Origin: Pelagibacteraceae bacterium AG-414-M23
Lineage (GTDB): Bacteria > Pseudomonadota > Alphaproteobacteria > Pelagibacterales > Pelagibacteraceae
DNA: 64,000 bases
NCBI GenBank assembly: GCA_003214525.1
Contig: QCLN01000004.1
Span: 1-64,000 of the forward strand
Direction of reading: 5' to 3'
Part shown: in pieces, positions 23,475 to 38,572 of the stretch
How positions within the stretch are numbered: the stretch's first letter is position 1
How the letters are laid out: each line of letters starts with the position of its first letter
Notes under the pieces: model-generated
Database searches by the model: none
Told to the model about the DNA's origin: nothing
Seen by the model: the letters and a program-made list of their open reading frames with translations, nothing else
Program-made: the position numbers and the translations under genes

Positions 23475-24833
23475 TTAGCCCTTTACAACTTCCCTTGTGT
23501 TTGCGTTGAAAGATTCTTTGAATGGAATATCAACTACAACAGCTTCAACAGGTGTTCCTGGGCTATTTGAATACTTTTCAGGTAAATGAACTTTAAATTT
23601 ACTTCCAGTTTTACCTTTTGGAAAACCATTTGCATTTAAAGTACCATCGAAGGGTACATAACCCATTGCAATATTAGTTTTCTTTTCAGGATGCCACCAA
23701 GGAGATGTTATAAAGCCTACCGGTTCACCGCCATCTTCTCCAGAAATTAACCAAAAATCAGGGGCATAATCTTCAATTGGTTTGCCTCCAAGTTCTAATC
23801 CAACGAGTTGCAGTTTGTATGGTTTTTTTCCAGCTTTAATATCAGCCCCCATAGCTTCTAAAGCTTTTTTACCAACGTAATCTCCCTTTTTATTCCACTC
23901 ACCCTTACCTGATAGTGAAACTTGATAACCTAAATTGCATTGAAAAGGATTATGTTGATGATCCATATCTTGTCCCCAAGAAAGAATCCCAGCTTGAATT
24001 CTTCTGTGGTGTGCAGGTGCAATTACCATTAAACTATGTTTTTTACCCGCATCAAGAACTGCATTCCACATATCTTCCGCATATAAAGTGGACTCTCTTA
24101 AATAAATTTCATAACCAGCCTCTCCTGAAAAACCAGATTGAGAAATTATACAACTTCTTCCTCCAATTTTAGCTGAAGCTAAACCATAAAAAGGTATATT
24201 TTCAAAATCAACTTGGTCACCACAAAGATCTTTCATTAGTGCTTTAGATTTAGGACCTTGGATTTGAACTGGCGATACATCTATTTCATGTATCTCACAA
24301 TTAAATCTTCCATCAGCGTTAACTCCCTGTAAGTACATTCCAATATCACTGTCTGACAAAGAAAACCAAAATTCATCTTTTGAGATTCTTAAAAGAATAG
24401 GATCATTTAAAACCCCACCATATTGGTTGCACAAGATAACATATCTCGCTTTCATAGGTGAAATTTTTGTTGCATCTCTTGTAATTACATAATCAACAAA
24501 TTTTTCTGCATCAGGACCTTTAACTTGTATCTGTCTTTCTACAGCAACGTTCCACATAGTTACATGATTTACAATTGCATCATATTCAACCATTGCTCCA
24601 CCATCTTCTGGTTTTACATATCCTCTTGGATGGTAAATACGATTATATACTGTTGCTCTCCAGCAACCTGCTTTCATTGATAAATGCCAATAAGGTGATT
24701 TCCTTACTCTTGTTGAAATTAGCATTTCTACTTTTGTTGGCCCGCTTTGTCTTAAATTGTATGGGACACTTCTGTCAGATTGATCTACTGACGTTATGTG
24801 TCTCATTTTACTATAGTCAAATTCTTTAGACAT
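23475..24833 (-). CDS. GcvT-family THF methyltransferase (DmdA/LigM-like), putative demethylase
   Basis: A 452-residue protein of the glycine-cleavage T / DmdA / LigM superfamily, enzymes that move a methyl or methylene group from a substrate to tetrahydrofolate. It has VERQIQVKGPDAEKFVDYVI near residue 95, CNQYGGVLNDPI, SPVQIQGPKSKALMKDL and SQSGFSGEAGYEIYLR, with a GcvT_C-like end (GEPVGFITSPWWHPEKKTNI, IAMGYVP). It is longer than SAR11 DmdA (about 370) and close to LigM in size. Its start overlaps a MetF-like gene by eight bases and lies downstream of a betaine-type transporter. It is probably a methyltransferase for an imported methylated compound; the substrate is unknown. Confidence 0.8.
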   Translation of the reverse strand: MSKEFDYSKMRHITSVDQSDRSVPYNLRQSGPTKVEMLISTRVRKSPYWHLSMKAGCWRATVYNRIYHPRGYVKPEDGGAMVEYDAIVNHVTMWNVAVERQIQVKGPDAEKFVDYVITRDATKISPMKARYVILCNQYGGVLNDPILLRISKDEFWFSLSDSDIGMYLQGVNADGRFNCEIHEIDVSPVQIQGPKSKALMKDLCGDQVDFENIPFYGLASAKIGGRSCIISQSGFSGEAGYEIYLRESTLYAEDMWNAVLDAGKKHSLMVIAPAHHRRIQAGILSWGQDMDHQHNPFQCNLGYQVSLSGKGEWNKKGDYVGKKALEAMGADIKAGKKPYKLQLVGLELGGKPIEDYAPDFWLISGEDGGEPVGFITSPWWHPEKKTNIAMGYVPFDGTLNANGFPKGKTGSKFKVHLPEKYSNSPGTPVEAVVVDIPFKESFNANTREVVKG

Positions 24834-25554
24834 ATTTATTCTCCATCAACCACTTATTAGTTTCCTTCAAGCCGCCGAATGTATAAATGTGAAAAAAATC
24901 AGTATGCGATTTAACTTTCCCTATTAAATCATTTGGGTCTTTAGGTTTCATTAAATCTAATGCCTTACTAAAATTAGATTTAAGAAAATTTAAGGAATTT
25001 TTTGCTCCTACAATATTAGCAAATTTAATCAGGCTAGTTATTTTAAGTGGCCCAGTAATTCCAACATGAACTGGTATTGTTTGATTAGAAATAAAGTCTA
25101 TTATTTTCTGAGAGTCTAGTAACCATTGAGTTACTATGTAGTCAGCATAAGGCTTTTTATCTTTCATAGCTTTTTCTAATTTTGAATCGGATATATCAGG
25201 ACTCCCCTCTGGATGTCCAGCGATTCCTATCTTCATCTGCTCAAAATATCCCGTTTCTAAAATTTGAATTGAGCTGTCAAAACTTCCAATGGGATCTCTG
25301 CTTCCTCCAATAACAAGTGCTTGCTTAACCCCTACATCTCTACATCTTGAAACATACTCTTTAAGTTGACCTTCATTTTCAATAGATCTAGCAGGGAAAT
25401 GTGGTATTGGATTTAGACCTTTTTTGAGTAGTTTAGAAGCTTGTTCAGCGGTATCTTTATAGTCTCCGCCTGGGAGCATAGTTATATACACATCCTTTAA
25501 AGCTGGCAAAGTATCTAGGTCAGTTTTAGGTCCAATTTCCAATGAAAAATTCAT
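24826..25554 (-). CDS. Short methylenetetrahydrofolate reductase-like protein
   Basis: A 242-residue MetF-family TIM-barrel protein, about 50 residues shorter than usual MetF. Recognisable segments are GLNPIPHFPARSI, QALVIGGSRDPIG, IGIAGHPEGSPD, YADYIVTQWLLD and HVGITGPLKITSLIKFA. MTHFR converts 5-methyl-THF and 5,10-methylene-THF. Coupled by an eight-base overlap to a GcvT-like methyltransferase, it probably oxidises the methyl-THF that enzyme makes, as in the ligM-metF pair for aromatic O-demethylation. It follows the permease after 63 bases. Confidence 0.8.
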   Translation of the reverse strand: MNFSLEIGPKTDLDTLPALKDVYITMLPGGDYKDTAEQASKLLKKGLNPIPHFPARSIENEGQLKEYVSRCRDVGVKQALVIGGSRDPIGSFDSSIQILETGYFEQMKIGIAGHPEGSPDISDSKLEKAMKDKKPYADYIVTQWLLDSQKIIDFISNQTIPVHVGITGPLKITSLIKFANIVGAKNSLNFLKSNFSKALDLMKPKDPNDLIGKVKSHTDFFHIYTFGGLKETNKWLMENKYV

Positions 25555-25617: not shown

Positions 25618-26502
25618 TTATCTTTTTATACCTCTATGCTTTTGTATTCTTCGACCATATTCTTGGGTGATTCTGTCAAAGATGATAGCTAGGGCTACAA
25701 TAGCTAGCCCGTTAAAAAGTCCCAAAGCTAAATATTGATTTGATATAGCTCTTAGAATTGGTACACCCAATCCTTTAACCCCAATCATAGACGCTATAAC
25801 AACCATAGCTAACGCCATCATTATAGTTTGATTAACGCCAGCAAAAACCGTTGGAAGAGCCAAAGGTATTTGCACAGTTTTTAACTTTTGTAATTTTGTT
25901 GCACCAAAAGCTTCACTTGCTTCTATTGTTTCTTTATCGACTTCCCTTATACCTAAATTGGTTAATCTTATAACTGGAGGTATAGCATATATACAAACAG
26001 CAATTAAACCAGGAATTTTTCCAATACCAAGCAGCATCAATATAGGAATTAAGTAAACGAAACTTGGAATGGTCTGCATCATGTCTAAAATGGGAAGCAT
26101 TGTTTTTTCAACTCTGTTAGATCTTGCCATCAATACTCCTATTGGAATTCCAACAGCTATACACATAATTGTACATACAGTTATGATTGCTACAGTTGCC
26201 ATGCAATCTTTCCACATACCAAAGTATCCAATCAACATAAAAGCAAGCACACTTCCAACTACAAGCTTCCAACTTCTTGAACCTAACCAAGCTAAAGCAC
26301 CAAGTATCAATAATATTATTGGCCAAGGTGTTGCTAGTAATAATTTTTCTAACTTAATTAAAAAAAATAACAATGGATCAAAAAAAGCTTCTATACCATC
26401 TCCATATGCTCTAGAAAATTCTCTAAACGTATGATCAATTCCCTTTCTCAACTCCATAAGGGATGTACGTTCCATCACTGGAAATTTATTTAAAAATTCC
26501 AT
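25618..26502 (-). CDS. Betaine-type ABC transporter permease
   Basis: ProW/OpuAB-type single-domain permease of 294 residues. The N-terminal region precedes about six helices. The core has MGIPIGVLMARSNRV-like sequence, MLPILDMMQTIPSFVYLIPI, the EAA loop ETIEASEAFGATKLQKLKTV and LPTVFAGVNQTIMMALAMVVIA. It lies after the binding protein gene, separated by a strong hairpin. There is no ATPase gene in this cluster, so an ATPase from elsewhere, perhaps that at 60577 or the one at the window start, would be needed. Confidence 0.93.
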   Translation of the reverse strand: MEFLNKFPVMERTSLMELRKGIDHTFREFSRAYGDGIEAFFDPLLFFLIKLEKLLLATPWPIILLILGALAWLGSRSWKLVVGSVLAFMLIGYFGMWKDCMATVAIITVCTIMCIAVGIPIGVLMARSNRVEKTMLPILDMMQTIPSFVYLIPILMLLGIGKIPGLIAVCIYAIPPVIRLTNLGIREVDKETIEASEAFGATKLQKLKTVQIPLALPTVFAGVNQTIMMALAMVVIASMIGVKGLGVPILRAISNQYLALGLFNGLAIVALAIIFDRITQEYGRRIQKHRGIKR

Positions 26503-26561: not shown

Positions 26562-27581
26562 TTAAAGACCAGCTTTGATTTTTTTAGCAGCTGCTGAAGA
26601 TACCCACTTAGTCCAAACACCTTCATGCTTTTTCAAAAATTCAATTGCTGCATCTGAACCTTTAGCTTGGTTGTCTGCCATAAACACAAGCATTCCATTC
26701 ATTACTTCACCTGGATAAGTACGTTTTTCAACATAACTTAAAGCTTCTTTTCCTCCAGTTTTAGCAAAATTTGCTGTAACGATAGAATTAACTTCAGATT
26801 TTGTCCATGCAGTTGGTTTAGGACTCGCGCAATCTTGCTCAGCTAACGTTATACAATTGTCCCAATTATCTCTTCCTCCGAACGGCACTCCGAAATCAAC
26901 TGGAATTAAACCATATTTTCCAACCATTGATGTTGGGTTCCAGTAATAACCAAACCAAGGGTTTCCTGAATCAGCCGCTTTAGATATTGTACCATCTAAA
27001 CCTGCTGCAGAACCTGGATCAATTAATACCCATCCTTTTTTTTCCATTTCAAAAGCTCTGAAAAGGTTTGCATTAGCTAACTGGCATCCCCAACCTGCAG
27101 GACAACCAACAAATGCTCCTTTTGAAGGATCTTCTTTAGATGGAAACCATTCAGGATGTTTTAAGATTTCCATTGCTGTCATACCTTTTATTTTAGGGTG
27201 TTTTTTAACAGTTCCTGGAGTTATCCACCAACCTTCACCAAGACCAGTAATAGGTGCTCCATTAGCAATGATTAATCTTTTTTCTGAAACAGCTTTTTTT
27301 AAAGGCGTGTAAACAGCATTAGCCCATTGTTCTGGATTCATGTCTGGCTCACCTTTTTCATCCATAGAAGTAAATGTAGGCATAGTTGCGCCAGGTATAA
27401 GCTCAACCTCACAACCATAACCTTTTTCTAAAATGATTTTATCAACGTTAGCCATTAATTCAGCCGACGCCCAGTTTTGCTCAGCAATAACCAGCTTTCC
27501 ACATCCTGCGTTAGCAACACCAGTAAATGAAGTGAAGCCTAAAACTACAAGAGCTGAAAGAATTATATTTTTTACTTTCAT
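26562..27581 (-). CDS. Betaine/TMAO-type substrate-binding protein
   Basis: OpuAC/ProX-family periplasmic binding protein of 339 residues. A signal peptide ends near residue 25 (GVANAGCGK). It has CGKLVIAEQNWASAELMANV, then tryptophan-rich segments (GLGEGWWITPG, GCPAGWGCQLAN, SGNPWFGYYWNPTSM) that would form an aromatic box for a quaternary amine or N-oxide. GCPAGWGC, DNWDNC and DCASPKP contain cysteines that may pair as disulfides. The start follows an AAAGGGA ribosome site. It is the first gene of the leftward cluster and divergent from bhmT. Ligand candidates are glycine betaine, dimethylglycine, DMSP or TMAO. Confidence 0.93.
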   Translation of the reverse strand: MKVKNIILSALVVLGFTSFTGVANAGCGKLVIAEQNWASAELMANVDKIILEKGYGCEVELIPGATMPTFTSMDEKGEPDMNPEQWANAVYTPLKKAVSEKRLIIANGAPITGLGEGWWITPGTVKKHPKIKGMTAMEILKHPEWFPSKEDPSKGAFVGCPAGWGCQLANANLFRAFEMEKKGWVLIDPGSAAGLDGTISKAADSGNPWFGYYWNPTSMVGKYGLIPVDFGVPFGGRDNWDNCITLAEQDCASPKPTAWTKSEVNSIVTANFAKTGGKEALSYVEKRTYPGEVMNGMLVFMADNQAKGSDAAIEFLKKHEGVWTKWVSSAAAKKIKAGL

Positions 27582-27720: not shown

Positions 27721-28767
27721 ATGAAAAAAGATTTAATAAAAAGATTAAATGAAGGTCCAGTTCTTTGTGCGGAAGGATATTTGTTTGCAATGGAGAGAAG
27801 AGGTTATTTACAAGCGGGAGCATTTGTTCCTGAAGTTGTATTAGAACATCCAGAAGTAGTTTCACAGTTACATAGAGAGTTTATAAGATCTGGCAGCGAA
27901 GTTGTTCAAGCATTTACTTATTATGGACATAGAGAAAAGCTTAGAATAATTGGGAAAGAAAAACTTCTTGAACAACTACAAAAAAATGCTTTAAAAATTG
28001 CTAAGGACGCAAGAAACGAATTCAAAGATCTTGATTTATTGGTAGCCGGAAATGTTGCAAACACAAATGTTTATGATCCGAAAGATAAAAAAAGTAATAT
28101 TGAATGTCAAAAGATGTTCGAAGAACAAGTTGCTTGGGCTAAAGAAGCTGGAGTAGATTTTATTATTGCTGAAACCATTACTTGGGTTGAAGAATTAAAA
28201 ATTGCACTTAAAGTTATAAAAGATGCAGGACTTATTGCTGTTTGCAATTATGCTTTTAGGAGAGATGGCAAAACTAGGGAAGGAACTTCCCCTGGAGAAG
28301 CATGTAAAGTTTTAGAAGATAATGGAGCTGATGTTGTTGGTTTAAATTGTTTTAGAGGCCCGAAAATGACAATGAAACTTTTGCCAGAAATAAGAAAAGC
28401 AGTTTCTTGTCATGTTGCTGCTTTACCAGTACCATACAGGACTACTGAAAAAGATCCTGGGTTTTTAAATCAAAAGGATGAAGGTTGCGATTGCATACCT
28501 GGAGGAAACGCATTCCCTGTAGCATTAGACAATTTATATTGTAACAGGTATGAAATGGCAGATTTTGCTAAGGACTGTGCAGAAAAAAAAATAAATTTTA
28601 TAGGAATATGCTGTGGTGCAGAACCTCATCATGTAAGGGAAATGGCAGTTGCTCTAGGAAGAAAACCAATTTCTTATAAATACTATCCTGATATGTCCAA
28701 ACATTATGCTCATGGAACCGACTCATCTTTAAAAAAACATAATACAGACGCTGCAAAAACTTTATAA
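27721..28767 (+). CDS. bhmT: Betaine-homocysteine S-methyltransferase
   Basis: Transfers a methyl group from glycine betaine to homocysteine, giving dimethylglycine and methionine. It is 348 residues. The start RLNEGPVLCAEGYLFAMERR and EFIRSGSEVVQAFTYYGH are BHMT-like. The zinc cysteines are visible in DVVGLNCFRGP and in the pair FIGICCGAEPHHVREMA. FLNQKD and GNAFPVALDNLYCNRYEM also match. It is the first gene of a long rightward operon, with dimethylglycine dehydrogenase starting nine bases later, so product and next enzyme are encoded together. A related substrate such as DMSP is possible. Confidence 0.95.
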   Translation: MKKDLIKRLNEGPVLCAEGYLFAMERRGYLQAGAFVPEVVLEHPEVVSQLHREFIRSGSEVVQAFTYYGHREKLRIIGKEKLLEQLQKNALKIAKDARNEFKDLDLLVAGNVANTNVYDPKDKKSNIECQKMFEEQVAWAKEAGVDFIIAETITWVEELKIALKVIKDAGLIAVCNYAFRRDGKTREGTSPGEACKVLEDNGADVVGLNCFRGPKMTMKLLPEIRKAVSCHVAALPVPYRTTEKDPGFLNQKDEGCDCIPGGNAFPVALDNLYCNRYEMADFAKDCAEKKINFIGICCGAEPHHVREMAVALGRKPISYKYYPDMSKHYAHGTDSSLKKHNTDAAKTL

Positions 28768-28776
28768 AGGAAGTTT

Positions 28777-31182
28777 ATGGAAAAACATGCCAAGGTAGTT
28801 ATAATTGGTGGAGGAGTAGTTGGTTGTTCAATACTTTACCATCTTTCAAAGTTTGGTTTAAAAGACTGTATATTACTAGAAAGAAATGAACTTACATCAG
28901 GATCATCTTGGCACGCTGCTGGAAATGTTCATGTAATATCTTCAGATCCAAATATTTCAAGAATGATGGCTTATACAATAGGCCTTTATAAAGAAATTGA
29001 AAAAGAGTCTGGACATTCGACTGGATTTAAACCAAGTGGTGGATTTTATTTGGCATCCAATGACGTATGGGCCGAATATCTTAAAAGAGAAAGATCAAAA
29101 GCAAGATATATGGGTCTTGATCAAGAATTTATTTCACTTGAAGAAGTTAAAAAGAAAAATCCACTCATTGACCCGTCTAGATATCTTTTGGCTTTATGGG
29201 ACCCAATTGATGGAGAGGTTGATCCATCAGGAGTAACTTATGCTTTTGCAAAAGCTGCAAAAGCTCATGGTGGAAAATATTATACTCATACAGTTGTTAA
29301 GGACACCAAACAAAAGAAAGATGGCTCATGGAATGTTGTAACAGACAAAGGAAACATTAACACAGAAATAGTAATTAATGCTGGAGGATTATGGGCAAGA
29401 GAAGTTGGAAAATTGGCTGGATTAAATTTACCAGTTCAACCTATGGAACATCACTATTTAATTACAGAAGCTATTCCAGAAATTGAAGCATTAGGAGATC
29501 AAAGACTTCCAATTGGTACAGACTTTGAAGGAAATATTTATTTTAGACAAGAAGGCAAAGGTATGCTGCTTGGAACCTATGAGCAAAAGTCTACTCCTTG
29601 GAAGGTAGATGGAACTCCAATGAATTTTGGACACGAGCTTTTAGAACCTAAGCTTGATAACATTCAAGACAGATTAGCTATTGGATTTGAAAGAATGCCT
29701 GCTTTAGAAAAAGCTGGAATTAAAAATATTGTTAATGGGCCATTTACATTTGGTCCAGACGGAAGTCCTTTAATTGGTCCTGTTCCTGGTTTAAAAAACT
29801 ATTGGGTAGCAGTTGGTGTTATGGCAGGTTTTTGCCAAGGAGGTGGAGTAGGAAAGTGTATAGCTGAATGGATTATAGATGGCGAACCTTCAATAGATGT
29901 TTGGGCAATGGATGTTGCAAGATTTGGAGATTATGCATCCCCTCAATATGGAACAATTAAATCTTCAGAAAATTATGAAAGAAGATTTATAATGACCTTT
30001 CCAAATGAAACTTTACCAAAAGGAAGAAGGCAAAAAACAACAGCCTTGTACGATAGATTTATTGAGCAAGGAGCTGTAATGGGAGATGCTTTTGGTTTAG
30101 AAAATGTTTTGTGGTTTGCTAATAACAAAAAAGATGCCTATGAAGAGCCAACAATTAAAAGATCAAGATCTCATAATTATGTTTCTAAAGAAGTAATAAA
30201 TGTAAGAGAAAATGTAGGAGTAATTGAAGTTGCTAACTTTTCAAAACATGAATTCAAAGGCCCAGAGGCAAGAAAATTTTTAGATCATATTATGGCAGGA
30301 AAATTACCTAAGCCAGGCCGAATTTCTTTAACACCTATGCTTACTTACAGAGGAAAACTTTATGGAGATCTAACAGTTGCATGTTATGATGAAAATCAAT
30401 TTATGGTTTTCGGATCAGGTGCTGCACAAGAAATGCACAGAAGATGGTTTGAAAGTCATATAAGTAAATTTAATTTAACATATAAAAATAGATCAGATGA
30501 ATTTCATGGCTTATCAATTGCTGGTCCAAAATCTAGAGAGCTACTCCAAAAAATAACAAGAGATGATGTTTCAAATTCTAAACTTAAATTTAGAGATTCA
30601 AGATATATGTTTGTCGGCGGAGTTCCCGCAATAGTAAATAGAATTTCTTTTACAGGTGAATTAGGTTATGAAATTTATGTAGCTCCCCATTTTCAACTCA
30701 AGTTGTATGAAGAAATCATACAGGCAGGAAAAGAATTCAATATCAAACCCTTCGGAGGAAGGGCTCTTATGTCAATGAGGCTTGAAAAAAGTTGGGGCGC
30801 TTGGACTTTAGACTATAGGCCAGATTTTACAGCAAAAGAGACTGGTTTAGATGTATTTATTAATTGGGACAAAGATTTTATTGGCAAAGAAAGCGCTAAA
30901 AAAGATCAAAGCGCAAATAAACTTGTACCATTAATAGTTCAAACAAATGAAATTGATGTAACTAACAATGAAGCTGTAATGAAAAAAGATAAGAGCATTG
31001 GATATGTTACTTCAGGTGGCTTTGCTCATTATGTAAATAAAAGTATCGCTTTCTCATACGTTAATAAAGAAGAAATTAATTCTAATAAAGGCATTCAAAT
31101 AGAAATTAACGGAGATTTATTTAATTGTTCTATAATTAAAGAACCACTTTATGATCCAAGTGGACAAAAGATGAGAAGTTAA
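28777..31182 (+). CDS. dmgdh: Dimethylglycine dehydrogenase (sarcosine dehydrogenase family)
   Basis: Oxidative N-demethylase of 801 residues that passes the methyl carbon to THF as methylene-THF. The N-terminal FAD domain has VVIIGGGVVGCSILYHLSKFG-type sequence and SGSSWHAAGNVHV, where the histidine normally carries covalent FAD. It also has GEVDPSGVTYAFAKAAKAHGG and PDGSPLIGPVPGLKNYWVAV. From about residue 430 is the GcvT folate domain (KHEFKGPEARKFLDHIM, SIAGPKSRELLQKI, FTGELGYEIYVAPH, RALMSMRLEKSWG). It directly follows bhmT, so dimethylglycine is the likeliest substrate; sarcosine has its own oxidase at 9456. Confidence 0.93.
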   Translation: MEKHAKVVIIGGGVVGCSILYHLSKFGLKDCILLERNELTSGSSWHAAGNVHVISSDPNISRMMAYTIGLYKEIEKESGHSTGFKPSGGFYLASNDVWAEYLKRERSKARYMGLDQEFISLEEVKKKNPLIDPSRYLLALWDPIDGEVDPSGVTYAFAKAAKAHGGKYYTHTVVKDTKQKKDGSWNVVTDKGNINTEIVINAGGLWAREVGKLAGLNLPVQPMEHHYLITEAIPEIEALGDQRLPIGTDFEGNIYFRQEGKGMLLGTYEQKSTPWKVDGTPMNFGHELLEPKLDNIQDRLAIGFERMPALEKAGIKNIVNGPFTFGPDGSPLIGPVPGLKNYWVAVGVMAGFCQGGGVGKCIAEWIIDGEPSIDVWAMDVARFGDYASPQYGTIKSSENYERRFIMTFPNETLPKGRRQKTTALYDRFIEQGAVMGDAFGLENVLWFANNKKDAYEEPTIKRSRSHNYVSKEVINVRENVGVIEVANFSKHEFKGPEARKFLDHIMAGKLPKPGRISLTPMLTYRGKLYGDLTVACYDENQFMVFGSGAAQEMHRRWFESHISKFNLTYKNRSDEFHGLSIAGPKSRELLQKITRDDVSNSKLKFRDSRYMFVGGVPAIVNRISFTGELGYEIYVAPHFQLKLYEEIIQAGKEFNIKPFGGRALMSMRLEKSWGAWTLDYRPDFTAKETGLDVFINWDKDFIGKESAKKDQSANKLVPLIVQTNEIDVTNNEAVMKKDKSIGYVTSGGFAHYVNKSIAFSYVNKEEINSNKGIQIEINGDLFNCSIIKEPLYDPSGQKMRS

Positions 31183-31811
31183 TGTCTCAAAAAGATGTAG
31201 GTAATAAAGTACCGATTTATAAACTTAAAAAAACCGAAGAAGTAATGAAATATTACGATGAGTGGGGCATAGGAAATAAATATGATAAGGATATGGTTGA
31301 CTGGAATTACACTGGTCCCAAAGAAACTTCAGAAGTTTTTATTAAATATCAAAAAAACAAAGATGCTAAGATCTACGATGCAGGATGTGGAACAGGTTTA
31401 GTGGGTGTTGAATTAAAAAAATACGGTTTTTCAAATTTTTACGGCGCAGATCTTTCTCAAAAATTATTAGATTTAGTTCCAACAGATCTATATCAAAAGT
31501 TAAATAAAGTAGACTTAAATAAAACTATTAAAGAAGAAGATAATTCTTATGATGCAGTTATGTGCGTTGGTACATTTACATTTGGCCACGTAAAACCACC
31601 TGCGTTAGATGAATTTATTAGAATTACCAAAAACAAAGGTCTTATTTGTTTTACAATTAATGAAGGAATTCATGAGGAGTATGGTTTTGATAAAAAAATA
31701 GACCAACTTAATAAAGATAATAAGTGGAAAGAAATAGAATTTTTTAAATCGAACTATATTGCCAGTAAAGATGTTAATGCATGGTTAGGTCTTTACGAGG
31801 TTATAAAATAA
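31182..31811 (+). CDS. Class I SAM-dependent methyltransferase (METTL27-like)
   Basis: A 209-residue Rossmann methyltransferase. The SAM motif is IYDAGCGTGLVGVELKKYGF at about residue 65, the acidic motif II is FYGADLSQKLLDL, and YDAVMCVGTFTFGHVKPPAL is the post-motif region. N-terminal KYYDEWGIGNKYDKDMVDWNY resembles the Williams-Beuren/METTL27 group, of unknown substrate. It overlaps the stop of the dehydrogenase and the start of the Rieske gene by one base each. In this operon it might methylate an amine or act on an intermediate; that is inference. Confidence 0.85.
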   Translation: MSQKDVGNKVPIYKLKKTEEVMKYYDEWGIGNKYDKDMVDWNYTGPKETSEVFIKYQKNKDAKIYDAGCGTGLVGVELKKYGFSNFYGADLSQKLLDLVPTDLYQKLNKVDLNKTIKEEDNSYDAVMCVGTFTFGHVKPPALDEFIRITKNKGLICFTINEGIHEEYGFDKKIDQLNKDNKWKEIEFFKSNYIASKDVNAWLGLYEVIK

Positions 31812-32986
31812 TGTCTGAAATATATAATATTGTTAATAAAAAAAAATTAGATGTAGTTAAAAAACCTATCAGTAAAGCGCATGGTCTTCCAAATGAATGT
31901 TATACAAGTAAAGAGTATACATTAATTGAAAGAAAAAAACTGTTTGAAGATAAATGGGTAGTAATCGGTGTCGCAAGTTCCATACCAAATATTGGCGATG
32001 TTAAACCTTTTGATCTTTTAGGAATTCCTTTGTTGTTATTAAGAAACAAAAAGAATCAAATTAAAGTATTTCATAATATTTGTAGTCACAGGGGGTCTAA
32101 ACTTGTTACGGAGTTATGTAAAAAAAAAAATATTATAAGATGTCCTTATCATTCATGGTCATACAATTTAGATGGAGATCTAATAGCCACTCCACATATT
32201 GGTGGAATGAACAAGCATAAGAGTCCAGGGTTTAAAAATTCTAAAAGTAATTTAAAAGAAATTAGATCGTACGTGTGGATAGATTTAATTATGATAAATA
32301 TTAATAACAACGAGATACCTTTTGAAAAATATATCAAACCATTAGATGAAAGATGGTCAAAATTTTGGCCCAACAAAGATAGAAAATTAATAAAACACTC
32401 AAATGATTTTGGATATTTTAAATTAAAAGCAAAATGTAATTGGAAATTTGCAATTGAAAATTATTGTGAAAGTTATCATTTGCCATGGGTTCATCCTGGA
32501 CTAAACTCTTATTCAAAAATAGAAGATCATTATCATATACAGGGTTTACCCAATAGATTTGCTGGGCAAGGTACTGTTGTTTATAATCCAAGATTTAAGG
32601 GTAAAAATAAACTCCCATCTTTTCCAAACTGGCCAAAAAATAAAGAACATATTGCAGAGTATGTGGCGTTATTTCCAAATGTAATGCTAGGAATACATAA
32701 GGATCATTATTATGCTTACTGGTTAGAACCTATTAATCATGAGCTTACTATAGAACATATGGAATTATATTACGTTGGAGAGAAAGCGGCTAATTCAAAA
32801 AAATTTAAATCATTAAGAAAGCAAAATCATAAATTATGGGAAGATATACAAAGGGAAGATGTTGATATAATCCAAAGAATGCAGATTGGAAGAAACTCAC
32901 CAGTTTATAATGGTGGAAATTTTTCTCCAATTATGGATAATCCCACTCACCATTTTCATAAATGGGTAGTAACAAATTTAGTTTAA
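31811..32986 (+). CDS. Rieske-type oxygenase alpha subunit
   Basis: Ring-hydroxylating-type oxygenase of 391 residues from ATG 31811, which overlaps the previous stop (TAATG). An upstream in-frame start at 31781 would overlap by 31 bases and is unlikely. The Rieske [2Fe-2S] ligands are CSHRGSKL and CPYHSWSYNLDG. The mononuclear iron site is AIENYCESYHLPWVHPGLN plus a later acidic residue in EDVDIIQRMQIG. The sequence style matches betaine, choline and carnitine monooxygenases (GbcA/CMO/CntA-like), so glycine betaine or a relative is a plausible substrate. No reductase gene is adjacent. Confidence 0.88.
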   Translation: MSEIYNIVNKKKLDVVKKPISKAHGLPNECYTSKEYTLIERKKLFEDKWVVIGVASSIPNIGDVKPFDLLGIPLLLLRNKKNQIKVFHNICSHRGSKLVTELCKKKNIIRCPYHSWSYNLDGDLIATPHIGGMNKHKSPGFKNSKSNLKEIRSYVWIDLIMININNNEIPFEKYIKPLDERWSKFWPNKDRKLIKHSNDFGYFKLKAKCNWKFAIENYCESYHLPWVHPGLNSYSKIEDHYHIQGLPNRFAGQGTVVYNPRFKGKNKLPSFPNWPKNKEHIAEYVALFPNVMLGIHKDHYYAYWLEPINHELTIEHMELYYVGEKAANSKKFKSLRKQNHKLWEDIQREDVDIIQRMQIGRNSPVYNGGNFSPIMDNPTHHFHKWVVTNLV

Positions 32987-32989
32987 ATT

Positions 32990-33430
32990 ATGTATAGACC
33001 TTTGCCAGAACAACTAACAATAAAAAATTCACCAATCGAGGGTTTAGGTTTATTTGCAACTGAAGATATAAAAGCCAATACTTTTATTGGTGTTACACAT
33101 ATAAGAGACGAGCAGTTTGAAAACAAATATATTAGAACACCATTAGGTGGTTTTTATAACCATTCTAACAATCCAACAGTAATGAGAATGGTATCAGATT
33201 CATTGCCAACACTAAAATTTGGCGATCCGATTGACCCTAACACCAATGCAAAAAAACTAAAAGATGGAAAAAATGATAGAGAGAATTTGTTTTATAACTT
33301 AAATGAAAAAAGTGATGCAAAATATATGTTTATGGTATCTACCAGAGATATTAAAGCTGGTGAAGAGCTAACAGCAAACTACAATCTTTACACTTACCCC
33401 AAAACTGGCGTTGGTATACAGATGCTTTAA
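32990..33430 (+). CDS. SET-domain protein
   Basis: A 146-residue protein consisting only of a SET domain. It has IKNSPIEGLGLFATEDIKAN at the start, GGFYNHSNNPTV as the NHS motif binding SAM, and STRDIKAGEELTANYNLY as the C-terminal ELxxNY motif with the catalytic tyrosine. SET domains methylate protein lysines; bacterial examples are few in function. It has its own start three bases after the Rieske gene and four bases before the DddP-like gene. The target could be one of the operon proteins, but that is speculation. Confidence 0.85.
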   Translation: MYRPLPEQLTIKNSPIEGLGLFATEDIKANTFIGVTHIRDEQFENKYIRTPLGGFYNHSNNPTVMRMVSDSLPTLKFGDPIDPNTNAKKLKDGKNDRENLFYNLNEKSDAKYMFMVSTRDIKAGEELTANYNLYTYPKTGVGIQML

Positions 33431-33434
33431 TTGA

Positions 33435-34670
33435 ATGAAATTCAATAGAAAAATTAATCCAAACTTAAAATCAAAACAGAATTTCATAACAAAGAAAAGA
33501 TTAAAAGAAGACGAGATAGATTTTAAAAAGTTAAGATCTTATAGACTTGATAGAGTAAAAAAAAAATTAGAGAAAAACAATCTTGAAGCTTGTATATTAT
33601 TCGATCCAGTTAATGTTAGATACGCTTTGGACTCAGTTAATATGAGCGTTTATAATATGCACAATCTTACCAGATATTGTTTTGTTCCAGTGAGAGGACC
33701 AGTGATACTTTACGAATATTTTAACTGTGGAATATTATCAAAACATTTAAATTTAATAGATGAAATAAGACCAGCAATAACTTGGGATTACTTCAGCAAT
33801 GGAGACCAAGCAAGCTTACAATTAAAAAAATGGATAAATGAAATTGAAGACTTGTCAAAATCTTATTTTAAAAATAAAAAAATAGCGATTGATGTTATTA
33901 ATGGACCCGCTATTACAGCATTAAATAAAACTGGTATTGAAGTTGTGGACGCTAAATTAATTCTTGAACAAGCAAGAGTTATTAAATCACAAGAAGAGTT
34001 AAAATGCATGAAGGCAGCTTTAGAAGTTGCTGAAATTGGTGTTACTAAAATGCGCAATGAACTAAAAGCTGGAATGACCGAAGATGAACTTTGGTCAATT
34101 TTACACAAAACAAATATTGAACATGGTGGTGAATGGATTGAGTGTAGAATTTTATCTTCAGGCGAAAGAACAAATCCATGGATGCAAGAAAGTAGTAATA
34201 AAATAATTCAAAAAGGAGAAATGGTATCTTTTGACACTGATATGGTAGGACCTTACGGATACTGCGCCGATATATCAAGAACATATGTTGAAGGCCACAA
34301 ATTTAATGATAGCCAAAAAAAAATATATCAAATGGCTGTTGAACAAATTAATCATAATTATAGATTAATAAAACCTGGAACATCTTTTAAAGAATTTACT
34401 GAAAAATCTTGGAAACTGCCTGAAGAATATTATGGAAATAGATATTCCTGCATGCTTCATGGAATTGGCCTTTGCGATGAATGGCCACAGATAAAATACC
34501 CAACTGATGGAGGGCAAAAAGAAGGTTATTTTGAAAAAAATATGACCATTACACTTGAGAGTTATATTGGTAAAGTAGGTGGAAAAGAAGGGGTTAAACT
34601 TGAACAGCAGTATTTAGTTGGTGAAAATAATCTTGAACTGATGTCCCATCATCCATTAGAAGATATCTAA
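33435..34670 (+). CDS. DddP-like M24-family enzyme (candidate DMSP lyase)
   Basis: A 411-residue M24 (creatinase/aminopeptidase fold) protein. It resembles DddP, the iron-dependent DMSP lyase that gives DMS and acrylate. FDPVNVRYALDSVNMSVYN, GGEWIECRILSSGERTNPW, SFDTDMVGPYGYCADISRTY and CMLHGIGLCDEWPQIKYP all match DddP closely. The six metal ligands are present: three Asp in the FDTD...CADIS stretch, His in MLHGIG, Glu in TITLESYIG and Glu in VKLEQQYLV. The Asp in GLCDEW corresponds to the proposed DddP nucleophile. The setting is a betaine operon, so action on another onium compound is possible. Confidence 0.72.
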   Translation: MKFNRKINPNLKSKQNFITKKRLKEDEIDFKKLRSYRLDRVKKKLEKNNLEACILFDPVNVRYALDSVNMSVYNMHNLTRYCFVPVRGPVILYEYFNCGILSKHLNLIDEIRPAITWDYFSNGDQASLQLKKWINEIEDLSKSYFKNKKIAIDVINGPAITALNKTGIEVVDAKLILEQARVIKSQEELKCMKAALEVAEIGVTKMRNELKAGMTEDELWSILHKTNIEHGGEWIECRILSSGERTNPWMQESSNKIIQKGEMVSFDTDMVGPYGYCADISRTYVEGHKFNDSQKKIYQMAVEQINHNYRLIKPGTSFKEFTEKSWKLPEEYYGNRYSCMLHGIGLCDEWPQIKYPTDGGQKEGYFEKNMTITLESYIGKVGGKEGVKLEQQYLVGENNLELMSHHPLEDI

Positions 34671-35077
34671 TGAAAATAATTTTAATAATGGGATTGCCTG
34701 GTGCAGGCAAAACAACTTTAGCAAATGAGTTGGCAAAATTAATTGAATGTAAAAGATTGAATGCAGACGAAATCAGAAAAGCTGCGAATGATTGGGATTT
34801 TTCAAAAGAAGGAAGAGAAAGACAGGCAAAAAGAATGTCTGATGAAGCTCTTAAAATAAAAAAAGAAGGCAATAATGTCATCGCTGATTTTATTTGCCCA
34901 ACACCTGAAGCTAGAGAGCTTTTTCCAGCAGATTACATTGTTTGGGTAGATACCATTAAAGAAGGAAGATTTGAAGATACAAATCAAATGTTTGTAAAAC
35001 CAGAAAAATTTAATTTTCATGTCACAACACAAGATGCTAAGCTATGGGCGTCTAAAATTAAGAAGGATTTAAAATAA
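34670..35077 (+). CDS. Small APS-kinase-like P-loop kinase
   Basis: A 135-residue P-loop protein related to adenylylsulfate kinase. Walker A is IMGLPGAGKTTLANELA at residue 7, followed by LNADEIRKAANDWDFSKEGR and VIADFICPTPEARELF, which match CysC. It is shorter than CysC (about 200) and ends soon after the lid region. Its start overlaps the stop of the DddP-like gene (TAATG) and its own stop overlaps the next gene in the same way. Paired with the nucleotidyltransferase, it looks like a two-step nucleotide-activation module. The true substrate is unknown. Confidence 0.75.
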   Translation: MKIILIMGLPGAGKTTLANELAKLIECKRLNADEIRKAANDWDFSKEGRERQAKRMSDEALKIKKEGNNVIADFICPTPEARELFPADYIVWVDTIKEGRFEDTNQMFVKPEKFNFHVTTQDAKLWASKIKKDLK

Positions 35078-35451
35078 TGTCTTATCAATGGGATAATAAA
35101 AAACCAACTGCACAAATGTTAGGAAGATGGCAACCATTTCATGACGGTCATTATGCTTTATTTGAAGAAATAATTAAAAAAACGGGTCAGGTTTGTATTC
35201 AAATAAGAGATGTTCAGGGTGTTGACGACAATCCTTTTGATTTTGAAACAGTTAAAAAAAATATAGAAGAAAGGTTAAAACCTAAATACGAAGGTAGATT
35301 TAAAATTATGTTAGTTCCTAATGTAACAAACATTTGCTACGGCAGAGGCGTAGGTTACAAAATAGAAGAAATAGTCATGCCTGAAGAAATACAAAAAATT
35401 TCAGCTACAAAAATTAGAGCTAAAATGAGAGAAGACGGAAAGTTGAAGTAA
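35077..35451 (+). CDS. Small cytidylyltransferase/ATP-sulfurylase-like nucleotidyltransferase
   Basis: A 124-residue nucleotidyltransferase-fold protein. GRWQPFHDGHYALFEEII holds the HxGH motif and KISATKIRAKMREDGK is the ISxTxIR motif at the C-terminus, so both signatures are intact in a minimal domain. It overlaps the stop of the APS-kinase-like gene by one base. Members transfer CMP or AMP onto a phosphate, sulfate or carboxylate. Together with the kinase it may activate a small metabolite; sulfate assimilation is possible but the proteins are much smaller than classical CysC/Sat. Confidence 0.75.
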   Translation: MSYQWDNKKPTAQMLGRWQPFHDGHYALFEEIIKKTGQVCIQIRDVQGVDDNPFDFETVKKNIEERLKPKYEGRFKIMLVPNVTNICYGRGVGYKIEEIVMPEEIQKISATKIRAKMREDGKLK

Positions 35452-35457
35452 AATTCA

Positions 35458-36309
35458 ATGAACGATAGACTTAAAACTATTGTAGACTTAGAAAAATATC
35501 CAATTCAAGATTTAAATTCTCCAAAAATAAAAGATCTGATAGAAAAATGCAAAAGTGAACTAAATCAATTTAGTTGTTCAACAATTCCTAATTTTATTTT
35601 GCCAAATTCTTTAAAAATAATGAATTTAGAATTAGAAAAACAACTTGATGAAGTTTATATGTCAAAAGAAAGTATTAACGCATATCTTTACGCTAAAGAT
35701 GATCCAACATTACCAGAAAATCATCCAAAAAGAATATTTATGAATAGATATAACGGATATTTAAATTCTGATTGTTTTCCAAAAGAATCTGAGATGAAGT
35801 TTCTTTATGAAACTGAAGAACTTTTAAAGTTTATTTCAGCTTGTTTAGGTATTGAACCAATTTATAGATGGGCTGACCCACTTGCGTGTCATGCATACAA
35901 CGTTATGAAACCCGATGGTATTCTTCCATGGCATTTTGATAGTTGTGAATTCACATTAAGCTTAATGATACAGAAGCCTGAAAAAGGAGGAGTGTTTGAG
36001 TATTGTCCAAATATTCGTGGACCTGGAAATGAAAACTTTGATGAAGTTAAAAAAGTAATTGATGGAGATCGTACAAGAGTGCGACAGTTAAAATTAGAGC
36101 CAGGTGATTTACAAATATTTAAAGGACGTTTTACATTACACAGAGTTACTAAAATTGAAGGAAACCTTTCAAGATATATGTGTATACCTGCTTATGTATT
36201 AGATCCATGGAGAGTAAACACGCCCGAACATTCAAAAGCAATTTATGGAAAAGTATTACCAATTCACCTAGAAAGAAATATAGCTAGATCTGATGGATTA
36301 GCTGATTAA
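35458..36309 (+). CDS. 2OG-Fe(II) oxygenase, BesD/ArpA-like
   Basis: A 283-residue iron/2-oxoglutarate oxygenase. The metal triad is visible as ILPWHFDSCEFTLSLMI (HxD) and FKGRFTLHRVTKIEG (distal His), with RYMCIPAYV supplying a 2OG-binding arginine. Spacing and the segments KGGVFEYCPNIRG and LKLEPGDLQIF resemble the ArpA/BesD group, whose halogenase members replace Asp by Gly. Here the Asp is present, so hydroxylation is expected rather than halogenation. It sits between the nucleotidyltransferase and the carnitine-dehydrogenase-like gene. A cationic amino acid or betaine is the probable type of substrate. Confidence 0.75.
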   Translation: MNDRLKTIVDLEKYPIQDLNSPKIKDLIEKCKSELNQFSCSTIPNFILPNSLKIMNLELEKQLDEVYMSKESINAYLYAKDDPTLPENHPKRIFMNRYNGYLNSDCFPKESEMKFLYETEELLKFISACLGIEPIYRWADPLACHAYNVMKPDGILPWHFDSCEFTLSLMIQKPEKGGVFEYCPNIRGPGNENFDEVKKVIDGDRTRVRQLKLEPGDLQIFKGRFTLHRVTKIEGNLSRYMCIPAYVLDPWRVNTPEHSKAIYGKVLPIHLERNIARSDGLAD

Positions 36310-37251
36310 ATGATTAAAAAAATAGCTGTAATTGGTACAGGAGTTATTGGAGCCGGATGGATCATCAGGATTTTGGCGCACAATAAAAAAGTTATCGCAT
36401 ATGATAAAAACTCCAGATTGGAAAAAAAGTTAATTTCAGAAATAAAGAGAGTATGGCCTTCTATAAAAAAATTATTTAATAATAAAAAACTTAATCTTAA
36501 AAATTTCAAATATGTAACTTCTATAGAAGAAGCTGTTAAAGAAGCAGATTTTATTCAAGAATGTGCAACTGAAGATTATAAAATAAAAACAAAACTAATG
36601 AATATCATTGGGAAATTTTCAAAACACGATGCTATAATATCATCGAGCTCTTCAGGCTTACTTCCCACAATGATATATTCCAAGTGTAAAAATCCACATC
36701 GAACAATGATAGCTCACCCTTTTAACCCTGTTTATATGTGTCCTGGAGTTGAGATTGTGCCTGGGAAAAAAACTAAGAAAAAATTTTTGAATAAGGCAAA
36801 TAAATTTTACAAATCAATATCAATGAACCCAATTATGATAAAAAAAGAATTACCAGGATATTTATCAGATAGACTTCAAGAAGCACTGTGGAGAGAAGCA
36901 TTACATATAGTAAATGAAGGATATGCTTCTACAAAAGAATTAGACAGAGCAATAGAAGATGGTCCTGGACTAAGATGGTCATTAATGGGAACTTTTTTAA
37001 CGTTTCATTTAGCCGGAGGAAAAGGGGGCATGAAACACATGCTAGAGCAATTTGGACCTGCTTTAAAATTACCTTGGACTAAATTAAAGGCTCCAACTCT
37101 TTCAAAAAAACTTTCAACAAGAGTTATTGCAGGAACCAAACAACAGGCTAGAGGAAAATCTGTAGAGCAATTGTCAAAAATAAGAGACGAATATCTGGTC
37201 AATCTTTTAAAACTAAGAAAAAAATATGAAGACAAAATAAGGAAACGATAG
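36310..37251 (+). CDS. L-carnitine dehydrogenase-like 3-hydroxyacyl dehydrogenase
   Basis: A 313-residue NAD-dependent dehydrogenase of the 3-hydroxyacyl-CoA dehydrogenase family. The Rossmann motif is IAVIGTGVIGAGWIIRIL at the N-terminus; SSSSSGLLPT, AHPFNPVYMCPGVEIVPG and YLSDRLQEALWREALHIV follow. The C-terminal EDGPGLRWSLMGTFLTFHLA and LEQFGPALKLPWTK are characteristic of L-carnitine dehydrogenases, which oxidise carnitine to 3-dehydrocarnitine. It starts directly after the 2OG oxygenase stop. With a GBBH-like gene at 45291 and bhmT upstream, carnitine to glycine betaine is a reasonable pathway. A lambda-crystallin-type enzyme is the alternative. Confidence 0.82.
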   Translation: MIKKIAVIGTGVIGAGWIIRILAHNKKVIAYDKNSRLEKKLISEIKRVWPSIKKLFNNKKLNLKNFKYVTSIEEAVKEADFIQECATEDYKIKTKLMNIIGKFSKHDAIISSSSSGLLPTMIYSKCKNPHRTMIAHPFNPVYMCPGVEIVPGKKTKKKFLNKANKFYKSISMNPIMIKKELPGYLSDRLQEALWREALHIVNEGYASTKELDRAIEDGPGLRWSLMGTFLTFHLAGGKGGMKHMLEQFGPALKLPWTKLKAPTLSKKLSTRVIAGTKQQARGKSVEQLSKIRDEYLVNLLKLRKKYEDKIRKR

Positions 37252-37291
37252 TAAAAAATATATAACATCTAAAATTTAATTAACAATATTT

Positions 37292-37873
37292 ATGATTTCA
37301 GCTATTCTTTTAGCAGCAGGAGAATCAAAGAGATTAAAAGGGGAGAATAAGTTAGTTAAAACTTTTAAAAAAAAACCTCTTATTCATTACTCTATAAAAT
37401 CACTACAAAAAAGCAAAGTAAAAAAAATAATTATTGTTTTGGGATTTCAAAGTGGAGAGGTAAAAAAAAAAATTAAAAAACAGAAAAAAATTCAGTTAAT
37501 TTTGAATAAAAAATTTAAACTAGGAATATCAACTTCGATTAAAGTTGGTTTAAAAAAAATCTACAAAAAAGATAAAGGATTTATAATTATGCAATCAGAT
37601 ATGCCTTTTGTAAAAACTTCAGATATCAATAAAATATGTAATTCGATAAACAAAAAAAAATATTTAGTTCATGCATTAAAATTTAAAAACAGAATAGGAA
37701 ACCCTATAGGATTTGATATTTCTGTTCTCGCAAAATTCAAAAAAATTAAGGGCAATATTGGAGCCAAATATATGGTTAAAAGATTAAAAAATAATACAAA
37801 TTTTATAAAAGTACATTCAGGAAAAGTTTTTAAAGATTTTGATTTAAAAAAAGATTTTAATAAGTTTGAATAG
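37292..37873 (+). CDS. MocA-like molybdenum cofactor nucleotidyltransferase
   Basis: A 193-residue nucleotidyltransferase of the MobA/MocA group. LLAAGESKRLKGENKL is the nucleotide-binding loop at the N-terminus and MQSDMPFVKTSDI carries the metal-binding Asp. RIGNPIGFDISVL and GNIGAKYMVKRL match MocA, the CTP:molybdopterin cytidylyltransferase. It converges on moaE with a 17-base overlap. MocA makes the cytosine dinucleotide cofactor used by xanthine-dehydrogenase-type enzymes. It begins 40 bases after the carnitine-dehydrogenase-like gene and may be read through from that operon. Confidence 0.78.
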   Translation: MISAILLAAGESKRLKGENKLVKTFKKKPLIHYSIKSLQKSKVKKIIIVLGFQSGEVKKKIKKQKKIQLILNKKFKLGISTSIKVGLKKIYKKDKGFIIMQSDMPFVKTSDINKICNSINKKKYLVHALKFKNRIGNPIGFDISVLAKFKKIKGNIGAKYMVKRLKNNTNFIKVHSGKVFKDFDLKKDFNKFE

Positions 37874-38303
37874 GGTTTCCTTTTAACCACTCACTATCAT
37901 TATTTTCATAATGCTCTTTTTTCCAAATTGGAGATCTTTTTTTTATTTCTTCTATAATATATCGAGATAAATCATATGCTTCAGATCTATGAGGACAAGC
38001 AACAGCAATAACAATACTAATTTCGCCAAGCCCTACATAACCTTTAACATGCTCAATAAATACAGATTTTTCCTTAATATTTAGTTTTTGCTCAGCTTCA
38101 TTATAAATTTCTTTAAAACTTTTAATTACAAGTTCATCATGGCTATCATAAGTAATTCCCGTAACTTTTTTGTTTTCATTATTTTCCCTAACTGTTCCAT
38201 AAAATACTATTGACGCACCAAATTTAGAAGAAGAAATAAACTCTTCGGCATTTTCTGGTTTAATTTTTTCTTTTGAAATATTTATTATTTTAGTATGAAG
38301 CAT
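37857..38303 (-). CDS. moaE: Molybdopterin synthase catalytic subunit
   Basis: Large subunit of molybdopterin synthase, 148 residues. It has GASIVFYGTVRENNENKKV, ITYDSHDELVIKSFKEI, EHVKGYVGLGEISIVIAVAC and RSEAYDLSRYIIEEIKKRSP-IWKKE, which include the catalytic lysines. Its start overlaps the moaD stop, and it is the last gene of moaACDE read leftward. Confidence 0.95.
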   Translation of the reverse strand: MLHTKIINISKEKIKPENAEEFISSSKFGASIVFYGTVRENNENKKVTGITYDSHDELVIKSFKEIYNEAEQKLNIKEKSVFIEHVKGYVGLGEISIVIAVACPHRSEAYDLSRYIIEEIKKRSPIWKKEHYENNDSEWLKGNPIQTY

Positions 38304-38572
38304 TAACCGCCCCCAATAGGTGGAATAATTCCTATTTTTTGATCTTTATTAATCTGGTAGTTTTCAGAAATAATATTATTGTCCTCAGAGCAAAATGCAG
38401 AAGTTTCAATTATCTTTTTTAAATTATTATTTCCTTTAAAATTTTGATCTACATAATTTATTATCGTTTTTCTAAGTTCTTTTATTGAGCTTTTTTCTTC
38501 AAGATGAAATTCTAAAAATTCTTTATCACTTAAGTCTTTACTTGCTCCGAATAGTTCAAGCTTTATTTTCAT
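38303..38572 (-). CDS. moaD: Molybdopterin synthase sulfur carrier subunit
   Basis: Ubiquitin-like sulfur carrier of 89 residues. The C-terminus reads IGIIPPIGGG, giving the Gly-Gly end that is thiocarboxylated, with a third glycine. It overlaps moaE by one base and starts two bases after the moaC stop. Confidence 0.93.
   Translation of the reverse strand: MKIKLELFGASKDLSDKEFLEFHLEEKSSIKELRKTIINYVDQNFKGNNNLKKIIETSAFCSEDNNIISENYQINKDQKIGIIPPIGGG

Follow-up and report, generated by a model that had tools for sequence, protein, structure and literature searches.

A modular SAR11 locus, probably for methylated onium compounds, with a compact kinase–nucleotidyltransferase pair proposed to act in sulfate activation

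The run of ten genes at positions 27721–37251 (+ strand) of a 64,000-nucleotide stretch of Pelagibacteraceae bacterium AG-414-M23 (contig QCLN01000004.1, positions 1 to 64,000; this whole stretch is called the window) is best explained as one allele of a modular locus of SAR11 bacteria, in which exchangeable cargo genes stand between fixed anchors, and not a single pathway. Its core consists of two compact genes, KIN, for a kinase resembling adenosine 5′-phosphosulfate (APS) kinase, and NT, for an adenylyltransferase of the HxGH type; the other eight genes are cargo, namely bhmT (betaine:homocysteine methyltransferase-like), DMGDH (dimethylglycine dehydrogenase-like), MT (a methyltransferase), Rieske (an oxygenase), SET, M24 (a DddP-like metalloenzyme), 2OG (a 2-oxoglutarate-Fe(II) oxygenase) and CDH (carnitine-dehydrogenase-like). 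We think it somewhat more probable than an even chance that this is an onium locus built around KIN-NT, and that the pair most likely serves sulfate activation, with NT as a sulfate adenylyltransferase and KIN converting APS to 3′-phosphoadenosine 5′-phosphosulfate (PAPS). From the observed gene content, order, variability and co-occurrence, together with family scores and predicted folds, we infer the catalytic steps, the direction of the reaction and the cargo substrate.

Fixed anchors and exchangeable cargo

An earlier note on this DNA had suggested searching for the gene order in other SAR11 genomes; much of it does recur there, so the ten genes are not merely neighbours by chance in a single genome. 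The 2OG gene is present in 53 of 297 genomes of the family, the window's own included, and in the 40 regions fetched around it the genes of the window reappear in shifting combinations. Of 593 places confirmed for NT in named genomes, the best 80 were taken, all of them SAR11 loci (Pelagibacteraceae). They have fixed neighbours: a DmdA-like gene (gcvTlike) and a gene resembling methylenetetrahydrofolate reductase (MTHFR) on one side, and KIN-NT, usually with an enoyl-CoA hydratase gene, on the other. KIN lies immediately 5′ of NT in 62 of these 80 loci, and the gene right after NT encodes the hydratase in 49 (a representative passes its model cut-off) and 2OG in 25. CDH accompanies 2OG in 19 of the latter 25, and M24 occurs in 25 loci, 22 of which also have 2OG. 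All 48 named loci with MT also have Rieske; outside these 48, L198 and L199 hold MT without a labelled Rieske gene. SET, present in 7 of the 80 loci, is accessory cargo.

Forty of the 80 loci are complete, extending from MTHFR through the hydratase or the next anchor. Their cargo is EgtB-EgtD-MT-Rieske in 18, nothing in 11, Rieske in four, a large open reading frame (ORF) between KIN and NT in three, Rieske-MT in two, EgtB-MT-Rieske in one and Rieske-M24 plus 2OG-aldolase in one, counts in which window-type alleles are under-represented because the 9-kb flanks cut long loci. Another cargo type is bhmT-DMGDH-MT-Rieske-(SET)-M24, and 2OG-CDH can stand after NT. Cargo genes are gained and lost as sub-modules. 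EgtB and EgtD, of ergothioneine/hercynine synthesis, pass NCBI cut-offs in L102 (4582-6761) and are also found in L200; in other loci the assignment was made from length and motif. Several Egt-bearing SAR11 alleles carry a downstream SBP56 gene (selenium-binding, methanethiol-oxidase-type), and in several loci ORFs of ~700-780 aa with signal-peptide-like N-termini lie between KIN and NT (L066:10949-13234; L044:8911-11028).

The anchors were also followed through a set of 143 genomes, made up of those with a completeness of 90% or more together with that of the window. Of the 143, 109 have an MTHFR-like gene and 116 have NT, and in 93 of the 104 genomes that hold both the two are divergent on one contig. 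The spacers between them, entered for 114 of the 116 NT genomes (G084 and G044, with weak matches, being omitted), fall into clusters at 101, 454-513, ~1100, 1700, 2300, 2900, 4524, 6970, 9190, 9500 and 10 280 bp, with some single values in between, a maximum of 13.8 kb and one outlier of 49.7 kb. KIN itself can be missing, as in two genomes of the window's genus (g1) with just 101 bp from MTHFR to NT, one of which was read (L197).

The KIN-NT pair and its contexts

KIN (34670..35077, + strand) exceeds the gathering score of PF01583 (42.7 vs. 21.1 bits), and the kinase half of a fused haloarchaeal homologue (L079, Halocatena) passes the TIGR00455 equivalog-domain cut-off (147.8 vs. 138.7 bits). 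When the predicted structure of a fused phage KIN-NT protein (L203; pLDDT 87.9) was compared with solved folds, the 30 top matches were all APS kinases or APS-kinase-like domains (Z 16.2-18.7), aligned mostly over 128-143 residues at a root-mean-square deviation (rmsd) of 1.8-2.8; gluconate kinase came next with Z 15.3, within 1 of the lowest APS-kinase match. KIN thus appears to be an APS-kinase relative, its fold being judged via this fused phage homologue.

NT (35077..35451, + strand) is only 124 residues long, and its proposal as a sulfate adenylyltransferase draws on motifs, predicted fold, and apr and sulfotransferase contexts. By its H-x-G-H and S-x-T-x-x-R motifs and its fold it belongs with the HxGH nucleotidyltransferase superfamily; its CTP_transf_like match is only at the Pfam cut-off. 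A model based on a 53-sequence alignment (pLDDT 90.7) has phosphopantetheine adenylyltransferase (PPAT; Z 11.8, 113 residues, rmsd 2.6) and nicotinamide mononucleotide adenylyltransferase (NMNAT; Z 10.9) as its nearest solved folds, so that the predicted fold fits an adenylyltransferase but leaves the substrate unspecified. Invariant columns among the 53 SAR11 and viral sequences include GR.QP.H.GH, R44, NP, GR.VGY and S.T.IR, of which GR.QP belonged to the pattern used to retrieve the sequences and the other motifs did not, except that the SAR11 rows had also been selected for the first H. The NT motif GR[DG]VGY may recall the GRDHAG of the ATP sulfurylase Sat. A profile comparison (A4) with the bifunctional SAT/APS kinase 2gks placed NT on Sat-like motifs only at non-significant scores and was left unused.

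KIN-NT persists in loci without cargo, near aprA and beside sulfotransferases, a distribution that makes sulfate/APS chemistry its most likely role and a part in onium catabolism improbable. PMC5069961 describes Candidatus P. ubique as having neither sat nor cysDNC and suggests that AprBA may detoxify sulfite. Among 28 NT genomes entered from outside genus g1 (those of g3, g6, g8 and g14 were chosen because they carried the 2OG gene), 22 had aprA. NT and aprA share a strand in 19 of these 22, from five genera, with NT 1.4-3.9 kb upstream; in the remaining three the two genes are on different contigs. The genes right after NT in L186 are an AprM-like ORF (by reading, with a weak QmoC match), aprB and aprA, and the equivalog cut-offs are passed by both AprA and AprB. 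In SAR11 relatives a gene of the TENA/PqqC or CADD family directly precedes NT, as in this same locus (L186:7902-8573), or lies between NT and apr (L085:9469-10152). The genus-g4 loci that were read hold NT without a labelled adjacent KIN, except for a diverged fused form in L189, and NT is present, with lower similarity, in 33 genomes of a further family of the order (f238). Across the 143 genomes aprA was found in 119, both aprA and NT in 105 and neither in 13 (p 1.6e-5 by Fisher's test, with no correction for phylogeny), whereas the Sat family, PF01747, was rare (8 of 143, with detection in 5 of 14 control genomes).

The pair also occurs beside sulfotransferases. Viral loci (80 of the 591 confirmed) could be read in 78 cases, the NT ORF not being found in the other two, and in these KIN accompanies NT in 75, as a separate ORF in 53 and fused to NT in 22, and is absent from three. 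Two viral gene clusters, one representative of each of which matches the sulfotransferase models PF00685/PF13469, supply the gene directly 5′ of KIN in 24 of the 27 loci in which they occur with KIN, compared with 3.2 expected by random placement, although these counts are non-independent, the phages being related; the overlaps with KIN are 1-23 nt, mostly 1-4 nt. Two further upstream clusters, c23 (no match) and c53 (E 0.005-0.008, below the cut-off), were not counted as sulfotransferases. The sulfotransferase-KIN-NT loci of viruses often include 2OG-Fe(II) oxygenases and a 'ferrochelatase' PHROG in a recurring downstream row (e.g. L238:5023-5601; L226:2658-3248; L243:5347-5997; L245:7363-8004). 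KIN adjoins NT in five annotated phages, and in the three of these regions that were read the two form a single CDS. On haloarchaeal plasmids, including that of Natrinema, a fused 'cysC' is adjacent to or one gene from an annotated sulfotransferase in all three regions read, with Pfam support in the one tested (L078). In Microvirga a sulfotransferase lies ~1 kb upstream of a fused KIN-NT, and in the SAR11 relative L188 the fused form adjoins a PF00685 sulfotransferase among surface-polysaccharide-like genes (by reading). Outside SAR11 the pair is rare in the bacteria sampled, being found in 3 of 398 genomes of the phylum at 1e-12, a count that includes the window's own genome and one partial match. 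The viral contigs in which it adjoins sulfotransferases suggest a sulfation module carried by phages. No description of a compact PAPS synthetase or of a phage KIN-NT-sulfotransferase module was found in the literature searched, preprints and most subscription papers being outside its scope; PMC13079714 calls a viral 'cytidylyltransferase', which might or might not be NT, unexplained.

We propose that NT, as an HxGH adenylyltransferase of very small size that stands apart from the Sat family, would catalyse sulfate + ATP <-> APS + pyrophosphate, and that KIN would phosphorylate APS to PAPS. In SAR11, AprBA would make APS from sulfite and NT would turn it back into sulfate with formation of ATP; in settings with sulfotransferases (viral contigs, haloarchaea, Microvirga and the surface-polysaccharide cluster) KIN-NT would supply their PAPS. 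NT is accordingly named here, from its context and motifs, as a candidate for the missing sulfate adenylyltransferase of SAR11. A stronger version of the proposal, which we put forward tentatively and rate at somewhat short of an even chance, is that NT represents a third kind of ATP sulfurylase (~124 residues, unrelated in sequence to Sat and CysDN), that it forms with KIN the smallest known PAPS synthetase and closes an ATP-yielding route from sulfite to sulfate in SAR11, and that phages spread the pair with sulfotransferases.

Several observations weigh against a role of the pair in sulfate activation. In genus g1 the MTHFR locus, and not the neighbourhood of apr, holds NT, and 14 of the 143 genomes have aprA without NT and 11 NT without aprA, although some of the NT absences may be assembly gaps, because in three of the 14 aprA-only genomes (G162, G268, G280) the contig begins within ~300 bp of MTHFR, on the flank expected to hold NT. 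The KIN of the window scores far under the TIGR00455 cut-off (35.2 vs. 138.7 bits). NT resembles NMN and phosphopantetheine adenylyltransferases in both profile and fold; no match to PF01747 was listed for it, just PF01467 at E 0.001, and ATP sulfurylase was absent from the best 50 fold matches listed, which is no proof of a different fold. For 51 of the 75 viral KIN genes the upstream gene is outside the sulfotransferase clusters, those tested being ribonucleotide reductase, DNA polymerase, Thy1 and unknowns, and the three annotated phage regions read have no sulfotransferase annotation beside KIN-NT. No sulfotransferase was recognised near the fused forms of L180 (G410), L183 and L189, the tested neighbour in L180 being an AMP-binding enzyme, and a 304-aa ORF of L190 that was tried as a sulfotransferase had no Pfam match. 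Finally, CysD/CysN-like ORFs (by reading) downstream of the fused KIN-NT of Microvirga mean that NT is not obviously needed there.

This last case also bears on a related explanation, in which KIN-NT acts in APS metabolism with an NT that is not ATP-sulfurylase-like, converting, for example, APS and phosphate to ADP and sulfate, or persisting as a regulatory remnant. The sulfotransferase and apr contexts would suit it equally, and the Microvirga NT, in which HxGH has become HESH, GR.VGY lacks its GR and the final R is gone, stands beside the CysDN-like ORFs; because the motifs are otherwise invariant over the 53 SAR11 and viral sequences, albeit with GR.QP in the retrieval pattern, we regard this explanation as unlikely. 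Slightly less likely still is a salvage pair for NAD or CoA. Fusions of a kinase with NMNAT exist (NadR), and the NT profile resembles NadM (2.1e-12 to MJ0541) and the NT fold is NMNAT/PPAT-like, but NT remains far below the NadM model cut-offs (NF002243, 27.9 of 127 bits; TIGR01527, 23.9 of 181.2 bits), KIN best matches APS kinases in Pfam and fold, and the contexts of the pair are sulfotransferase and apr.

A shade less probable again is that all ten genes form one onium pathway, as the earlier note had envisaged. In the version considered here, 2OG would hydroxylate a betaine, KIN would phosphorylate and NT nucleotidylate the product, and M24, CDH and the demethylases would finish its breakdown. 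The tight packing and overlaps in the window speak for it, as does the adjacency of NT and 2OG in 25 of the 80 SAR11 loci. Because the core pair persists in the 11 of 40 complete loci that have no cargo, the single ten-gene pathway was dropped; moreover, the hydratase more often follows NT directly, loci outside SAR11 have 2OG-M24 with no KIN-NT label, and KIN-NT is found near aprA in other genera and with sulfotransferases elsewhere. The least likely explanation, that the locus is a hotspot for unrelated genes whose neighbourhood, KIN-NT and apr included, says nothing of function, would account for the strong variability of the locus and the large ORFs inserted between KIN and NT, but the associations of the pair with sulfotransferases and apr, and that of 2OG with M24, turn up again in distant organisms or elsewhere on the chromosome.

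The cargo and the flanks of the run

All ten ORFs are present on the + strand of the window, which belongs to a SAR11-type genome of 1.10 Mb in 38 contigs that is 87.6% complete, and their coordinates bear out the tight rightward packing described in the earlier note. bhmT (27721..28767; PF02574) has human BHMT as its closest solved structure (4.5e-49) and is followed after 9 nt by DMGDH (28777..31182; DAO, FAO_M, GCV_T and GCV_T_C domains), an FAD/tetrahydrofolate (THF) demethylating dehydrogenase-like protein, which overlaps MT (31182..31811), an S-adenosylmethionine methyltransferase (PF08241, 3.1e-11), by 1 nt. Rieske (31781..32986), a CntA/GbcA-like alpha subunit (PF00355, PF00848; CntA structure 2.3e-28), overlaps MT by 31 nt counting from its first ATG, or by 1 nt if an internal ATG is the start. 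SET (32990..33430; PF00856, 9.6e-12) lies 3 nt after Rieske and 4 nt before M24 (33435..34670; DddP model, 8.8e-105); M24 and KIN, and KIN and NT, overlap by 1 nt each; and 2OG (35458..36309), a relative of HalD/BesD (PF23169, 41.9 bits, cut-off 26), begins 6 nt past NT and is followed without a gap by CDH (36310..37251), an L-carnitine-dehydrogenase-like 3-hydroxyacyl dehydrogenase (3HCDH). The Pfam-level families of all ten agree with the names in the earlier note, and most cargo genes fall, as it had said of at least five of the ten, in families acting on betaines or sulfonium compounds. Several narrower names did not hold at NCBI equivalog cut-offs: bhmT reaches 94.5 of 338 bits (NF005718), Rieske 115 of 670 (GbcA), M24 351 of 600 (DddP, NF043017) and CDH 353.2 of 414 (L-carnitine dehydrogenase, NF005471), so that 'DddP-like' and 'carnitine-dehydrogenase-like' are right only as 'like'. 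A Pfam scan found no reductase partner for Rieske among the ten genes.

The 2OG gene and the DddP-like M24 gene are a separate pair that is seen outside SAR11 too. In 6 of 22 non-SAR11 loci, mostly chosen from the best 2OG matches, the 2OG homologue directly adjoins an M24 homologue (L074, L075, L166, L171, L174, L177), and three of these six (L074, L075, L171) have an OpuAB-type permease nearby. The M24 of the window carries the motif HGIGLCDEWP, compared with HGVGLCDEWP in the solved chain 4rzy, presumably a DddP; the homologue of L074 has HGIGMCDEHP, and those of the other five loci are without the CD. An H-x-D motif is present in 23 of 23 aligned 2OG sequences and the distal H in 22 (Gln in L170). 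As the metal site of halogenases is H-x-G, a hydroxylase is expected. A sequence search of solved structures in the Protein Data Bank with 2OG gave no match at 0.01. In Rhodobacteraceae M382 the genes that come after 2OG encode an ABC transporter, a protein of the trimethylamine-methyltransferase family and an FAD oxidoreductase, and some SAR11 have a diverged 2OG (~53%) with 3-hydroxyisobutyrate-dehydrogenase-like and class II aldolase-like genes (by reading) and a FrhB-family protein. The fixed genes (gcvTlike-MTHFRlike and KIN-NT, usually with the hydratase) would thus bracket exchangeable cargo for methylated onium compounds, comprising demethylation by bhmT, DMGDH, MT and Rieske and a 2OG hydroxylase with the DddP-like M24 and the carnitine-dehydrogenase-like enzyme. 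Its likeliest role is the oxidation and cleavage of an onium acid like carnitine or dimethylsulfoniopropionate (DMSP), with demethylation by bhmT, DMGDH and Rieske. Homarine catabolism was considered as a theme and set aside, the literature searched showing no SAR11 cluster of such kind.

To the left of the run, on the − strand, are the anchors gcvTlike (23475..24833; PF01571, 6e-39), a GcvT/DmdA-like protein of the THF-dependent demethylase type that is under the DmdA cut-off (NF009133, 231.9 vs. 410 bits), and the MTHFR-like gene (24826..25554; PF02219, 3.4e-5, slightly below the cut-off), followed by genes for an OpuAB-type permease (25618..26502; PF00528, 2.4e-28) and an OpuAC-type betaine binding protein (26562..27581; PF04069, 2.5e-43), divergent from the ten genes. 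To the right, a MobA-like gene (37292-37873, +) starts on the same strand 40 nt past CDH, which makes the end of the run at ten genes uncertain. MobA/MoaEDCA-like genes occupy 37251-40105, where the hydratase of most relatives is absent; its 80% homologue at the start of another contig of the same genome (C29) suggests a rearrangement breakpoint. No Rfam element reached its gathering score over 22-43 kb, and promoter-like sites were fewer than in shuffled sequence and terminator-like sites about as many. At the ends of the window (60589-63118 and 2-2980) are two more clusters of ABC transporter genes whose similarity is of the betaine type, with ATPases 48-49% identical to that of the SAR11 carnitine-island type and permeases 35-37% identical to OpuAB, and a 606-aa ORF (12159-13979) with a GcvT-like stretch, 31% identical to DMGDH over 353 residues, is a further gene of the THF-dependent demethylase type.

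Relation to known systems and significance

The PAPS synthetases PAPSS1/2 are arranged as APS kinase followed by ATP sulfurylase, and fused KIN-NT likewise has its APS kinase domain first and its HxGH nucleotidyltransferase second; human PAPSS1 aligns with the fused L203 model over parts of both domains (Foldseek and VIA, rmsd 9-13). NT differs in its 124 residues, its lack of a PF01747 match and its greater nearness to NMNAT and PPAT, and KIN and NT are often two genes. Among the other cargo comparisons, M24 shares its HG[IV]GLCDEWP motif with the DddP DMSP lyase, from which it is set apart by its score and by frequent company with a 2OG hydroxylase, and 2OG shares PF23169 with the radical halogenases BesD and HalD but has H-x-D at the metal site. 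The Arctic SAR11 island for glycine betaine and carnitine, as described in PMC12421898, comprises an Opu-type ABC transporter, carnitine dehydrogenase and BKACE, and is resembled by a second SAR11 site with 2OG (L058, L059, L060, L062, L063, L065), where Opu-type transporter, carnitine-dehydrogenase-like and BKACE-like genes were found (partly by reading, and not matched gene by gene) and 2OG is 80-85% identical. Relative to that island, the MTHFR/KIN-NT locus of the window is another site with another gene set.

SAR11 are the ocean's most abundant bacteria. They are thought to oxidise sulfite to APS by AprBA, with sat and cysDNC reported absent (PMC5069961, PMC12636525), an absence that bears on the fate of APS and on any ATP gained from organosulfur in the surface ocean. 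To this scheme our analysis contributes NT as a candidate for the enzyme acting on APS, encoded shortly upstream of aprBA in five genera, and a named candidate of 124 residues near apr makes the fate of APS directly testable. The swappable onium cargo, and the pair of 2OG and the DddP-like enzyme, are likewise targets for finding the osmolytes used by SAR11 populations.

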